The translations under genes were made by a program, and so were the position numbers. Positions 1 to 61,269 of a DNA stretch of 64,000 bases are shown here, one piece after another. The DNA is from a virus. Position 1 is the first letter of the stretch; every line of letters begins with the position of its first letter. The notes under the pieces are model-generated. The model saw only the letters and a program-made list of their open reading frames with translations. It had not been told where the DNA came from and made no database searches. The stretch is taken from positions 159,880-223,879 of the IMG/VR virus record IMGVR_UViG_3300035698_007246; one strand, given 5' to 3'.

Positions 1-27
1 AAGCCCCTGTCCCCATCATTATACTTA

Positions 28-18718: not shown

Positions 18719-19363
18719 TTATTTCAATTTTCTTGTGATTTTCCAACCTTTATATAACCTATTATATATTATTGACGCATACACACTACTCGGTTTTAAA
18801 TTATATTGTTTACTAAATATTTGATAACTATCAATATTATCAAATATAATACCATCTGGATTTACAAACATATAAATATATTTAGAATTTGGATTGTTTT
18901 TACCTTTTATTTTAAATCCTTTTCCATACTTAGGATTTTTAATACCTTTTGATAATCCATTCTTTTTTCTAACATCACTCAATTTTTTCTTTTGTTTTTC
19001 TGACCAGTTATTGCCATAATTAGGATTCTTTTCACCTTTAATATTTTCTGAACGTGTTTTTCGTCTTTCATCTACCCAAACACCACGCTTCCCTTTAAAT
19101 CCCCCACCAGAACGTATATTATATCCAATAGATTTATCAGTAGCACTTAATTCAGCAATCCAGAATATTTCTTTTTCACAGACATCACCTGAAGTACAAC
19201 ATTCAAGAACTTTCCTAACAAAATTCTCTTTATCATATTTAGCAATCGAACGTTTTAGAATTTTTCCAGAACCCAAATATCCATCATTTGCCGAAGAACA
19301 ATGTTGTCCAACATAAATCTTATTATTAATTAAATTTGTAGTTTTGTAAATTATGTAACACAT
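18719..19363 (-). CDS. GIY-YIG homing endonuclease (Seg-like) with NUMOD3 repeats
   Basis: 214 residues. The GIY-YIG nuclease is at residues 2-90: YIIYKTTNLINNKIYVGQH, then EIFWIAEL and GYNIRSGGG. It is followed by NUMOD3 DNA-binding repeats (GEKNPNYGNNWSEKQKKKLS, NPKYG, NPNS) and a C-terminal helix-turn-helix-like NUMOD segment (DSYQIFSKQYNLKPSSVYAS). It is free-standing, between the glycosyltransferase and small genes. It has its own late promoter and structured leader, and its RBS region (AATTGGGGG) can be covered by a leader loop. Confidence 0.88.
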   Translation of the reverse strand: MCYIIYKTTNLINNKIYVGQHCSSANDGYLGSGKILKRSIAKYDKENFVRKVLECCTSGDVCEKEIFWIAELSATDKSIGYNIRSGGGFKGKRGVWVDERRKTRSENIKGEKNPNYGNNWSEKQKKKLSDVRKKNGLSKGIKNPKYGKGFKIKGKNNPNSKYIYMFVNPDGIIFDNIDSYQIFSKQYNLKPSSVYASIIYNRLYKGWKITRKLK

Positions 19364-19465
19364 ATAGAAGTAACCCCCAATTAAGTTTTAAAAATGAGAG
19401 ATGATGGAATAATCTTTGAATTGGCAAAGAAACAGTTTCGAATTCTGCTGTCTTCCATTCACCCT
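19364..19465 (-). promoter_or_regulatory. Structured 5' leader of the GIY-YIG gene (diverged copy)
   Basis: Predicted RNA start at 19465. Outer stem: ATGGAA at 19458-19453 with TTCCAT at 19409-19404. Right after the first strand comes GACAG, and ATTA precedes the second, as in the leaders at 36.2, 46.6 and 60.4 kb. An inner hairpin CTTTG/CAAAG at 19429-19414 has loop CCAATT, complementary to AATTGG at 19382-19377, the 5' edge of the G-rich ribosome binding site. Structure is inferred by eye. Confidence 0.5.
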
Positions 19466-36171: not shown

Positions 36172-36179
36172 TATAAATA
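36172..36179 (+). promoter_or_regulatory. T4-type late promoter of the 36.3-kb endonuclease
   Basis: Exact TATAAATA; T4 spacing puts the start at 36185, the first base of the leader's outer stem. Confidence 0.6.
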
Positions 36180-36184
36180 AATAT

Positions 36185-36274
36185 GAGAAGGACATCGGAG
36201 TCATGACCGTTTCCTGAAACTTATACAAGTAAGGATTACTTCTCATTCATTTTAACTCGTATAAGGAGAAAATT
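36185..36274 (+). promoter_or_regulatory. Structured 5' leader, copy A, pairing with the RBS
   Basis: Outer stem GAGAAG (36185-36190) with CTTCTC (36239-36244). CGGAGTCATGACCG can form an inner hairpin; a TTTCCTGAAAC segment and AGTAAGGATTAC follow. CTTATAC (36220-36226) is exactly complementary to GTATAAG (36259-36265), which overlaps the GGAG of the endonuclease gene. Copies B and C keep this pairing with different bases. Confidence 0.6.
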
Positions 36275-37198
36275 ATGGGTAAAAGATTAACAAAAGAAGA
36301 ATTTGTTGAAAAAGCAAGAAAAGTTCACGGTGATTTATACGATTATAGTTTAGTTGAGTATAAAAGTGCTCATGGAAAAGTGAAAATTATATGTCAAGAA
36401 CATGGTGAATTTGAACAAAATTTTAATAATCATGTTTATAATGGTAAAGGATGTCCTAAATGTAATGGTGGGGTTCGATTAACAACAGAAGAATTCATTG
36501 AAAGAGCAATAAAAGTTCATGGTGAATTGTATGATTATAATTTGGTTGAATATGTGTCGAATAATAAAAAAGTTATAATAATTTGTAAAGTTCATGGTGA
36601 ATTTGAACAAACTCCTAATAGTCATTTAAATGGAAGTGGGTGTTCTAAATGTGCAAATATGTATAATAGAATTAATAAATCAGACACAATTGATATGTTT
36701 ATAAAAAAAGCAGAAAAAATACATGGATTGATATATGGATATTCAAAATGTGTATATGTTAATGCATATATAAAAGTCAAAATTTTATGTAAAAAATGTG
36801 ATATTTTCTTTCATCAAACTCCAAATGACCATCTAATGGGAAGTGGATGTTCTAAATGCAAATCATCAAAAGGTGAATTGAAAATTGAAAAATATTTAAA
36901 AGAAAATAATATAAAATTCATAAATCAAAAGACATTCAGGGAATGTAAGGCCGTAAAACGTTATTTGCCTTTTGATTTTTATTTGCCGGAGTATAATATT
37001 CTTGTTGAATATGATGGTATGCAACATTTTAAACCAATAAAATATTTTGGTGGTGTTGAAGCATTTCAAAAAAGACAAAAATATGACAAATTCAAAACTG
37101 ATTATTGTTTAAAGAATAATATTAAATTAATCAGAATCCCATATACGGAATTTAAAAATGTGGAAATTGTTTTACACGAGGAGTTAAAAAATGTCTAA
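36275..37198 (+). CDS. Homing-type endonuclease: three zinc-finger-like repeats plus Vsr/PD-(D/E)XK-like nuclease
   Basis: 307 residues. Residues 1-200 hold three repeats of a DUF723-like module, each with EFVEKARKVHGDLYDYSLVE-type start and CQEHGEF...CPKC, a DNA-binding zinc unit (CPKC, CSKC, CSKC). Residues 205-307 form a nuclease domain: KRYLPFDFYLPEYNILVEYD, GMQHFKP, and LKNNIKLIRIPYTE, like Vsr-type homing endonucleases. It sits between two gp14-like genes; its 3' end carries the RBS of the second (GAGGAGTTAAAAA) and overlaps it by 8 bases. Late promoter and leader lie upstream. Confidence 0.85.
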   Translation: MGKRLTKEEFVEKARKVHGDLYDYSLVEYKSAHGKVKIICQEHGEFEQNFNNHVYNGKGCPKCNGGVRLTTEEFIERAIKVHGELYDYNLVEYVSNNKKVIIICKVHGEFEQTPNSHLNGSGCSKCANMYNRINKSDTIDMFIKKAEKIHGLIYGYSKCVYVNAYIKVKILCKKCDIFFHQTPNDHLMGSGCSKCKSSKGELKIEKYLKENNIKFINQKTFRECKAVKRYLPFDFYLPEYNILVEYDGMQHFKPIKYFGGVEAFQKRQKYDKFKTDYCLKNNIKLIRIPYTEFKNVEIVLHEELKNV

Positions 37199-46618: not shown

Positions 46619-46623
46619 TATAT

Positions 46624-46710
46624 GAGAGGGACAGAGATTAATTACCTTTTCCTGAAACCTTTATGAGTAAGGATTACCTCTTAATTAAAAATCTATAAAG
46701 GAGATTGATA
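46624..46710 (+). promoter_or_regulatory. Structured 5' leader, copy B, pairing with the RBS
   Basis: Outer stem GAGAGG (46624-46629) with CCTCTT (46677-46682). CCTTTAT (46658-46664) pairs exactly with ATAAAGG (46695-46701) at the RBS. Shares TTTCCTGAAAC and AGTAAGGATTAC with copies A and C. The promoter before it is degenerate (no exact TATAAATA), as the downstream endonuclease is also decayed. Confidence 0.55.
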
Positions 46711-47103
46711 ATGGAAAGTAAATTTTATACATATGTGTATCTTGACATGAGAAAATCAAGAAAATATAAATATGGACAAATTGCTAATAGAAGTGGTGAG
46801 AATAATTCAAATTTTGGAAATAATTGGTCAGAAAAACAAAAAGAAAAAGCGTCTAAACTTCATAAAGGTAAGTGGATAGGTGATAAAAATCCAAGTAAAA
46901 TAAATCCTAAATGTGGTATGATAAATGGTATATCACAATATAAATATTATTTGTATGATAATGATGTTCTTATTGACGAAGGTTATAGTTTAACATTAAT
47001 GAGTAGAGAGAATAATTTGAATTATAATATGTTAAGAAAAATTTCAAAAAATGGAAATAAATATTTAAAACGATATATAATTAAAAGAGAAAAATGGAGA
47101 TAA
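46711..47103 (+). CDS. Shrunken GIY-YIG endonuclease remnant
   Basis: 130 residues from the ATG at 46711. The start FYTYVYLDMRKSRKYKYG equals the beginning of the full GIY-YIG gene at 60478 (FYVYVYLDPRKPGKYKYG), but the second motif FYVGKG, the Arg-containing helix and most of the nuclease are missing. NUMOD3 (GENNSNFGNNWSEKQKEKAS) and a C-terminal NUMOD-type segment follow directly. It probably cannot cut DNA but may still bind it. Inserted between the 67-like gene and prohead protease. Confidence 0.72.
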   Translation: MESKFYTYVYLDMRKSRKYKYGQIANRSGENNSNFGNNWSEKQKEKASKLHKGKWIGDKNPSKINPKCGMINGISQYKYYLYDNDVLIDEGYSLTLMSRENNLNYNMLRKISKNGNKYLKRYIIKREKWR

Positions 47104-54884: not shown

Positions 54885-56084
54885 ATGATAGAAGTTTATG
54901 TTTGTGAAATGTGTAAGATGGAATTTACAGTTAAAAGAGGTTTGAAAAATCACAACAAAAGATTCCACCCTGAATTGTTTGCATACAAATGTGAAATGTG
55001 TGGAGAATTAGCTGAAGATTTAAAAGGTTTATTGATTCATGTGACTAAGAAACACAAAAATGCTGAAGAATATTTTAATAAATATTTATCAGGTAAAGAA
55101 AAATGTAGATATGAACATTGTAATGAGGCTTTAGAATACAATAATAGGTTTAGTGGGTATTATTGTTGTCAGTCACATTATGAAGCACAAAAGAAAATTA
55201 ATAATGGTATTAAATTGAATTTTATATGTCAAATTTGTGGTTCTGGGTTCGAAGATGTTGGTGGATTACAGCAACATTTAACAAAGATACATAAATTTGA
55301 TGTTATTAAAAATAAAGAATATTATGATAAATATTTAAAAATAGAAAATGAAGGATGTTGTTTATATTGTGGTAAAGAATTAAATTTAGTTAAAAATAGA
55401 TTTACTGAAGGTTATATGAAGTTCTGTTATAATACAGAATGTAATGTCCGTTGGTATAATGAAAATGATAATAGAATTGATAAAATGTCAAATTCATTAA
55501 AACAGACACATCATGATAACCCAGAAATTTCTCCATTAAAAAAAGAATATTGGATGAGTAAAGGTTATTCTGAAACACAAGCAATTGAAAAAGTTTCAGA
55601 AAGACAAACAACATTCAGTAAAGAAATTTGTATTGAAAAATATGGTGAAGATGATGGTATTAAAAAATGGCAAGATAGACAAGAAAAATGGCTTGATTCT
55701 ATGCCAAGAATGAATTTTTCTAAAATAAGTCAAGAATTATTTTGGGGGATTTATAAACATATTAAAGATAGATATAAGAATGTGTATTTTGCGAGTTTTG
55801 TTGGTGGTGATAGAGATGATAGTAAAAATAGAGAATATCGCATAAAAACAAATAGGTCATATAGATTATTAGATTTTTATATTGAGGATGTCAATAAATG
55901 TATAGAGTTTGATGGAACATATTGGCACGGTGAAATAGGTAGAGGCAACAGAACTCGTGATGAAGATAGGACAATTGAAATTTTGGAGGTTAATCCAGAT
56001 ATGAAAATATTTAGAGTAAAAGAAGATGATTACAATAAAGATAAAGAAAAAGTAGTACAAGAATGTATTGAATTTTTAAATTAA
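54885..56084 (+). CDS. Zinc-finger plus Vsr-like homing endonuclease between terL halves
   Basis: 399 residues; RBS TTGGAGTATTAAAA. N-terminal 185 residues have several C2H2/CxxC fingers (CEMCKMEFTVKRGLKNHNKR, CEMCGELAEDLKGLLIHVTK, CQICGSGFEDVGGLQQHLTK, CCLYCGKEL). Residues 275-399 form a nuclease domain with LLDFYIEDVNKCIEFDGTYW, HGE, an EDxHD/Vsr-like pattern, and KIFRVKEDDY. This type of free-standing endonuclease between halves of a split-intein gene is known from fractured genes. It would cut intein-free terL. Confidence 0.82.
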   Translation: MIEVYVCEMCKMEFTVKRGLKNHNKRFHPELFAYKCEMCGELAEDLKGLLIHVTKKHKNAEEYFNKYLSGKEKCRYEHCNEALEYNNRFSGYYCCQSHYEAQKKINNGIKLNFICQICGSGFEDVGGLQQHLTKIHKFDVIKNKEYYDKYLKIENEGCCLYCGKELNLVKNRFTEGYMKFCYNTECNVRWYNENDNRIDKMSNSLKQTHHDNPEISPLKKEYWMSKGYSETQAIEKVSERQTTFSKEICIEKYGEDDGIKKWQDRQEKWLDSMPRMNFSKISQELFWGIYKHIKDRYKNVYFASFVGGDRDDSKNREYRIKTNRSYRLLDFYIEDVNKCIEFDGTYWHGEIGRGNRTRDEDRTIEILEVNPDMKIFRVKEDDYNKDKEKVVQECIEFLN

Positions 56085-60376: not shown

Positions 60377-60384
60377 TATAAATA
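60377..60384 (+). promoter_or_regulatory. T4-type late promoter of the 60.5-kb endonuclease
   Basis: Exact TATAAATA; expected start 60390 is the first base of the leader's outer stem. Confidence 0.6.
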
Positions 60385-60389
60385 ATAAA

Positions 60390-60477
60390 GAGAGGGACAG
60401 TGGGTAGCTCCTATTTCCTGAAACCTTTACGAGTAAGGATTACCTCTCAATTTTAAAAATCAGTAAAGGAGATTATA
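60390..60477 (+). promoter_or_regulatory. Structured 5' leader, copy C, pairing with the RBS
   Basis: Outer stem GAGAGG (60390-60395) with CCTCTC (60443-60448). CCTTTAC (60424-60430) pairs exactly with GTAAAGG (60463-60469) of the RBS. TTTCCTGAAAC and AGTAAGGATTAC are shared with A and B. Confidence 0.6.
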
Positions 60478-61269
60478 ATGAAAGATGAAAAAAGATTTTA
60501 TGTTTATGTGTATCTTGACCCAAGAAAACCGGGAAAATATAAATATGGTGAATATGAATTTGAATATGAACCATTTTATGTTGGTAAGGGATGTGGGAAA
60601 AGATGGAGATATCATTTAAATGAAGCTAAAAATAGAAATGAAAATAATTATAAGTTAAATAAAATTAGAAAAATTATTAATGATTGTGGGATTGAACCAA
60701 TAATTATTAAATATAAAGAAAATTTAGATGAAAATGTATCATTAAATCTTGAAGTTGATATGGTTGATAAAATTGGAAGAATTATAAATAATAATGAAGG
60801 ACCTCTTGTGAATATAACCGATGGTGGTGAAAAATTTTCAGGATTGAAAAATGATTTGAATGGACGGTGGAAGGATGTTGATAAAAATTTGATATTTGGT
60901 TTGTATGAAAATGGAAAAAGTATTGAAGAGATTGCATTGATAACTAAAACAACTATACCATTAATTCGTAGACGAATTATATATTGGGAATTGCCAATAC
61001 GTAAAGATATTAATATTGGAAGAAAAAAATCTATTAAATGCAAAGAAAAAATATCAAAATCTAAAATTGGGTTATATGGTGAGTTAAATGCGAATCATAA
61101 ATATGTTTATACATTTGTTTCGCCAGATAATCATAAATATAAATTTAAAGATATAAATAAATTTTGTAAAGAATATAATCTTAATTATGGAAGTATAAGA
61201 AAATCTTTTAAAAGAAATTCTGAATATTATAAAGATTGGAAAATAGAAAGAAGATTAATTTTAAAATAG
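60478..61269 (+). CDS. GIY-YIG homing endonuclease
   Basis: 263 residues. Nuclease domain 5-110: FYVYVYLDPRKPGKYKYGEY, FYVGKGCGKRWRYHLNEAKN (GIY-YIG with catalytic Arg in GKRWRYH), LEVDMVDKIGRI with Glu, LVNITDGG. A middle helix-turn-helix (LYENGKSIEEIALITKTTIP) and a C-terminal NUMOD-type HTH (DINKFCKEYNLNYGSIRKSF) would bind DNA. Inserted between gp18 and gp19, 103 bases after gp18. Confidence 0.88.
   Translation: MKDEKRFYVYVYLDPRKPGKYKYGEYEFEYEPFYVGKGCGKRWRYHLNEAKNRNENNYKLNKIRKIINDCGIEPIIIKYKENLDENVSLNLEVDMVDKIGRIINNNEGPLVNITDGGEKFSGLKNDLNGRWKDVDKNLIFGLYENGKSIEEIALITKTTIPLIRRRIIYWELPIRKDINIGRKKSIKCKEKISKSKIGLYGELNANHKYVYTFVSPDNHKYKFKDINKFCKEYNLNYGSIRKSFKRNSEYYKDWKIERRLILK

Follow-up and report, generated by a model that had tools for sequence, protein, structure and literature searches.

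What kind of leader do nuclease genes at scattered positions in a T4-like phage genome have in common, and how might it control them? The window, which is the whole stretch of DNA analysed here, comprises 64,000 nt of phage record G000 (IMG/VR IMGVR_UViG_3300035698_007246, positions 159,880-223,879), and in it a sequence-only reading had picked out leaders A, B and C together with a diverged fourth, D, in which the ribosome binding site (RBS) appeared to pair with an upstream segment that changes along with it.

Leader copies in the window and their relatives

Every motif claimed for leaders A, B, C and D could be read directly in its place, and a 34-base core pattern occurs in the window exactly three times and in none of 100 shuffles. 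A covariance model (R1), made from a 34-sequence alignment and run over the window with filters off, gives B 76.3, C 74.3, A 71.4 and D 46.9 bits, with the next match at 12.4; all four leaders are therefore real, and D is a true member (E 3e-10, the E-values of the model being rough). A further copy has its 5' end at window positions 1..18 (-) and extends beyond the left edge (G000:C1:159842-159897; 43.5 bits); the gene after it looks broken, with a 24 aa frame. The full G000 record (223,879 bases) carries eight leader copies, and a second phage, G001 (253,664 bases), carries 14 (L420-L432).

The exact-core pattern found 22 stretches in viral contigs, and looser core patterns gave further matches, chance ones among them. 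Six finder matches without the P2 and P3 stems described below were judged to be chance and removed before alignment A1, and L010 was added by hand. The search for further covarying homologues, which the sequence-only reading had named as its own refuting test, did find them: the collection holds 72 distinct members, nearly all on contigs of uncultivated phages. Counts below refer to the 70 members other than L013 (divergent) and L210 (cut off), to the 68 left without L177 and L376 (no gene call), to the 66 left without L021 and L421 (gene lost), or to hand-chosen subsets of 20 and 22 of these 66 (A3 and A4), divided by P3 type.

Among named phages the leader was present in all three of the cultured Enterocloster phage regions examined, of five listed, and was absent by the covariance model from seven named phage records with related endonuclease genes (0/7); blastn searches of 50,697 phage records with two leader sequences returned no convincing match. 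The exact-core scan of cellular genome contigs gave 11 stretches, none with GGACAG upstream, which by eye were judged to be chance. With stricter filters the model found the leader in one of 398 genomes in the phylum of G027 (the genome of L120, a Lachnospiraceae MAG), where the copy sits on a contig with phage-like genes, as read from its open reading frames, and an HNH gene; it found none in 395 genomes in the phylum of G028 (the genome of L112, a Bacteroides MAG). Rfam at gathering score has no match at the leaders in the window, in 15 loci or in a further 4, and E-value searches gave nothing convincing for copy C or four copies outside the window, in line with the earlier failure to recognise an existing RNA family. 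The leaders make up a widespread RNA family that these searches did not find in Rfam 15. It is likewise undescribed in the open literature covered, including term look-ups in the accessible text of PMC2988022, PMC3014915, PMC2864571, PMC7357161 and PMC4227781, a search that most subscription papers lie outside.

Predicted three-way junction and Shine-Dalgarno gate, and a palindromic loop

The leader RNA has a constant order of elements, with an outer stem P1, the joining strand J1/2 (GACAG), hairpin P2, J2/3 (TTT), hairpin P3, J3/1 (ATTA) and the returning strand P1'. In copy A this three-way-junction domain, identified by model score and covariation, occupies 36184..36245 (+), with P1 at 36184-36190/36239-36245, GACAT at 36191-36195, P2 at 36196-36209 with TCATGA in its loop, TTT at 36210-36212, P3 and its loop L3 at 36213-36234 and ATTA at 36235-36238. 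The corresponding domains lie at 46623..46683 (+) in B, 60389..60449 (+) in C and 19403..19459 (-) in D. Over P1 to P3 in 34 sequences 92.9% of cells pair, compared with 66.5% with shuffled partners, a control free of drawn-structure bias (as is swapping) but one that ignores relatedness, and with 34-55% in slid versions, over which the helices have an advantage because they were drawn from the same sequences; changes on both sides occur in 12 of the 13 pairs.

Two forms of P3 occur. That of A, B and C consists of CCT/AGG followed by GAA opposite AGTA, a part that we take to resemble the bulged-G (loop E) motif, and that of D is a plain helix (CTTTG/CAAAG) of a type in which double changes are seen at all five pairs among 22 such sequences. 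The TAAGGA that had been proposed as an unchanging mimic of the Shine-Dalgarno sequence (SD) is the 3' strand of P3 (CCT/AGG) and is replaced together with its partner strand in D, L241, L037, L288 and others; the constant mimic is thus one strand of a helix, and we dropped it. Throughout the family all helices vary and the junction strands GACAG, TTT and ATTA hardly do, J1/2 being GACAG in 65/70 members and J3/1 ATTA in 68/70.

The pairing of the RBS with an upstream, co-changing segment is borne out by the whole family. L3 forms at least 6 exact bp with its own RBS strand in 63/68 members, compared with 7.9% of swapped pairings, and this pairing involves 60 different strands. Within the window CTTATAC (36220-36226) is complementary to GTATAAG (36259-36265) in A, CCTTTAT (46658-46664) to ATAAAGG (46695-46701) in B, CCTTTAC (60424-60430) to GTAAAGG (60463-60469) in C and CCAATT (19424-19419) to AATTGG (19382-19377) in D. 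The SD-side strand is in turn the loop, L4, of a hairpin P4, which reads CTC[GTATAAG]GAG in A (36256..36268, +), AATCT[ATAAAGG]AGATT in B (46690..46706, +), AATC[AGTAAAGGA]GATT in C (60458..60474, +) and, with two G-U pairs, ACTT[AATTGG]GGGT in D (19373..19386, -), and further afield AACC[TATCAGGA]GGTT in L016 and AGTC[AATGGAG]GACT in L300. In strict register P4 has at least 3 bp in 53 of 66 members (1000 permutations: mean 34.8, maximum 44), a test that supersedes an initial one in loose register (own 65/66; swapped 80%). The RBS is therefore paired in the leader RNA of these genes (63/68; P4 53/66), as it is in the T4-type endonuclease hairpins. With all helices and the kissing contact counted, 91.3% of cells pair in the 20-sequence subset (slid controls 37-55%) and 96.3% in the 22-sequence subset (39-53%), and the L3-L4 helix alone is 94.3% and 98.5% paired, respectively. 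Since the RBS strand is the apical loop of a covarying hairpin, the L3-RBS contact is best read as loop-loop kissing, with the SD partly within the kissing helix and partly within the P4 stem. The long-range pairing put forward by the sequence-only reading is thereby retained and its form revised: the H-type pseudoknot was given up for L3-L4 kissing once P4 had been found.

These compensating changes show that pairing is preserved in the predicted helices P1, P2, P3 and P4 and in the loop-loop contact of L3 with L4. RNAalifold, unaided on the 66-sequence alignment, recovered only P1; 8 sequences folded singly have weak z-scores (-0.25 to -2.94), and for A, B and C such folding does not reach the full model fold.

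The usual P2 loops are TTGCAA, TTCGAA, TAGCTA, TGGCCA, TCATGA, TGATCA, TAATTA, TTATAA, GTCGAC, GTAC and variants, giving the self-complementary apical loop that a palindromic kissing-loop dimer needs. A 4-nt palindrome is present in 25 of 32 distinct P2 loops with stem pairs removed (shuffles 11.1), counted on distinct loop sequences, not independent lineages, and the P3 interior has no palindrome excess. The calculated binding of a P2 loop to itself averages -4.35 kcal/mol, against -0.90 between different loops and -1.65 for shuffled loops with themselves. The own copy is among the best partners for only 12 of 38 loops (in shuffled sets 5.4 on average and 11 at most), one reason being that several loops share one palindrome. 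Seven of 38 distinct trimmed loops are without a 4-nt palindrome, and GACG takes its place in three members (L029, L021 and one copy in L241). A GGCA loop, which is not a palindrome but might self-pair through its central GC, ends P2 in L313:1920-1971, L431:921-974 and L422:100-150. Similar DNA (72-79% identity) precedes copies C, L014 and L017, their endonuclease genes are related (66.7% and 74.4% identical to C as proteins, the second figure over 78 residues), and their palindromes differ (AGCT, CATG and TGCA). Within a single hairpin the middle two bases of an even-length palindrome are unable to pair with each other, so that these loops suggest contact between two molecules, and each leader RNA probably pairs through its P2 loop with another of its kind. 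In G001 several copies have a P2 palindrome in common, which would permit pairing between different transcripts.

Transcript starts and downstream genes

Of 44 members tested, 22 have an exact late promoter TATAAATA at most 60 bases upstream (shuffles 1.3), and it ends 0-11 bases before P1 in 21 of these 22 (22 bases before in L289). We take the sixth base after TATAAATA to be the usual T4 late +1. In copies A and C, where the promoter lies at 36172..36179 (+) and 60377..60384 (+), this base (36185 and 60390) is the first of the GAGARG stem strand, as had been claimed, if that presumed geometry holds. Copy B has no TATAAATA, its best upstream match having two mismatches, and L002/L012 and L005 have a perfect sigma-70 type promoter instead. 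From this spacing late starts should fall at or just before P1, a few of them some bases inside, and late transcripts should therefore keep most or all of the structure; the T4-type arrangement, a late start inside the structure with its loss, is not what these promoters show (21/22, on the same presumed start geometry). A zinc-finger gene at window 54885-56081 (+), whose product weakly matches the homing-endonuclease PHROG phrog_3339, has a late-promoter-like sequence upstream and no leader copy.

The genes behind the leader are of many kinds. Gene A (36275..37198, +) encodes a DUF4379/DUF723 nuclease-like protein of 307 aa and gene C (60478..61269, +) a GIY-YIG (LEM-3-like) endonuclease, with tail sheath and tail tube genes on either side; gene B (46711..47103, +; 130 aa, no Pfam match) is probably a decayed endonuclease gene, which corrects the endonuclease assignment made earlier for all three. 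Gene D (18719..19363, -) encodes a NUMOD3-containing endonuclease-like protein of 214 aa, its NUMOD3 match being just below the cut-off. Pfam scans of downstream proteins across the family identify GIY-YIG types (LEM-3-like, SegE-like, NUMOD3), HNH types (HNH_3 with an AP2-like stretch or NUMOD4, and HNH), the DUF723/DUF4379 and DUF7487 groups, a C2H2/ROS-MUCR protein in L126 and TnpB behind two copies in L131. Several downstream proteins have no Pfam match above cut-off, including those of L007, L139, L367, L426, L425 and B, and 'always a nuclease' is therefore not proven case by case. The gene is broken or missing after the leader in L421, L021 and L376, and L177 and L013 (weak, 17.7 bits) have no nuclease gene. 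The leader-like RNAs of these last two (L013:9688-9752, with a longer P2 and CCAATTGG in its loop, and L177:5911-5972) each have a late promoter and might be small RNAs or remnants.

Some copies accompany group I introns. The IStrons at L131:3855-5597 and L131:13275-14442 have the order group I intron, leader, TnpB, RAGATH-18 RNA, the last seen at the first only, as the second runs to the contig end; their two leaders have different P3 and kissing strands and nearly identical TnpB. L371 has a group I intron, leader and DUF7487 gene, and the Enterocloster bolteae phages CB457P1, CB457P2 and CB473P3 have a group I intron, leader (45.2 bits) and I-TevI-like gene, with the P3 loop CTGCAA opposite TTGCAG within CTTT[TTGCAG]AAAG. 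Group I introns thus accompany the leader at two of 15 loci scanned (L131 and L371) and at all three Enterocloster loci; Rfam finds none in the window, and the leader is not always beside an intron core as an intron peripheral domain would be.

Nor is the leader bound to one gene family, a possibility that we rejected: of the 28 viral loci that carry a relative of gene A, only the identical L015 has it, and relatives of gene D have it at two of four loci. One P2 hairpin in G001 precedes different genes (L426, L428 and L430). The leader is a module that passes from one nuclease family to another, and the view of it as portable, standing before unrelated nuclease genes, is upheld.

Possible function and comparison with known systems

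We hold with good confidence that the leader acts as a portable cis-acting translational lock on selfish nuclease genes. Its RNA would fold as a three-way junction that presents L3 to kiss L4, with the 5' half of the SD in the kissing helix and the 3' half in the P4 stem, so that translation would be low by default. On balance, the self-complementary P2 loop would also join two transcripts of the same kind; our guess is that dimerisation would strengthen the lock, making repression rise with mRNA level, with weakening as the alternative. In late operons a start at or near the first base of P1 would leave the lock mostly or wholly on the transcript, and for copies in group I introns and IStrons a further role may be to exclude ribosomes from the intron during splicing. 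The earlier proposal of a translational control cassette is thus borne out as to a modular leader with a paired RBS, its effect on translation being predicted from sequence. Hairpin P2 with its palindromic loop, the near-invariant three-way junction and the occurrence in group I introns and TnpB IStrons were not part of that proposal. More tentatively, we suggest a self-dimerising mRNA lock in which copy-specific palindromic loops would control the kissing gate on the SD in a dose-dependent way, as a module common to the RNA-guided TnpB and to protein-guided selfish nucleases (GIY-YIG, HNH and others).

The lock reading has against it the copies with a broken or absent downstream gene, the weak unaided folding and, as regards dimerisation, the P2 loops that lack a palindrome. 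The near-invariant junction goes beyond what simple SD masking explains and is also counted against it. GACAG in 65/70 and ATTA in 68/70 members, among helices that vary, is the usual look of a binding core, and with the SD gate it makes up the conserved core and expression platform of a riboswitch, in which a small molecule or ion bound by the junction would stabilise the kissing and so close or free the SD, with P2 aiding folding or dimerising. Translational riboswitches of the preQ1 and SAM-II types share with the leader a conserved core and an SD masked by long-range pairing, but the leader has another architecture, other genes and no Rfam match. As the downstream nucleases are of many kinds and not of one pathway, no metabolite suggests itself, and no Rfam riboswitch matched where searched; we consider this explanation unlikely. 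A constant throttle, in which the fold permanently limits nuclease translation and responds to no signal and the palindrome packs the fold or stabilises the RNA, would suit a homing nuclease that may be needed in small amounts only, and would agree with an SD pairing that is strong and general. A plain hairpin would do for this, however, and the conserved junction and the palindromes suggest more, leaving the throttle a possible explanation that falls somewhat short of an even chance.

Two further explanations concern parts of the leader. P2 lies just downstream of the late promoter and might act at the DNA level, as a palindromic binding site for a dimeric protein, for example the nuclease as its own repressor, in the manner of I-TevI, for which autorepression at its late promoter is known (accessible text of PMC2988022). 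Yet related genes at the same site have the palindromes AGCT, CATG and TGCA (C, L014 and L017), and it is self-complementarity that is kept, not sequence, which makes such a binding site very improbable. The compact conserved core, with no explained role, could also serve to process nuclease mRNAs at their 5' end, either as a self-cleaving ribozyme or as a site for an RNase. Against this, no Rfam ribozyme matched where searched, a late start expected at or near P1 leaves little to cut off, and the L3-L4 pairing tracks the SD; we give this idea hardly any credence.

Selfish nucleases need expression enough to spread and too little to harm, and one RNA module on unrelated nucleases, whether free-standing, intron-borne or in IStrons, points to a common, mobile regulatory solution to that need. 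If the palindromic loops work as they look, these would be natural phage mRNA leaders that dimerise with differing codes, and because the cultured Enterocloster phages CB457P1, CB457P2 and CB473P3 carry the leader, the lock reading is open to testing now.

Like peripheral domains of IStrons and group I introns, the L131, L371 and Enterocloster copies lie between the intron core and the TnpB or endonuclease gene, whereas the window copies have no intron; the words ribosome binding, Shine, pseudoknot and three-way do not appear in the accessible text of the IStron survey (PMC4227781). The leader of T4 gene 32 also controls translation through a pseudoknot-type structure, with gp32 binding 67 nt upstream (accessible text of PMC3014915), but there a protein, gp32, binds the pseudoknot and here the leader itself would pair with the SD. 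In retroviruses, according to the accessible text of a review (PMC7357161), the HIV-1 DIS is a six-base palindrome with flanking purines and the murine GACG loops are self-complementary kissing loops; the P2 loop likewise has a self-complementary centre, in many cases a palindrome of six bases with purines on either side, and three members have GACG. We claim no sequence kinship, and the P2 loops differ in sitting in phage mRNA leaders, where dimerisation is a prediction. Close parallels are also the RBS hairpins of phage endonuclease genes (I-TevI, I-TevII, I-TevIII, segB and Aeh1 mobE), which likewise mask the RBS, with late promoters involved (accessible text of PMC2988022 and PMC3014915). 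Those hairpins are local, and the leader is one conserved three-way junction with a putative kissing gate, serving many gene families. Moreover, the late transcript of T4 I-TevI starts inside the structure and so escapes its hairpin, being without sequence needed for the inhibitory fold (accessible text of PMC2988022), whereas the late transcripts of the leader would start at or near its first base.
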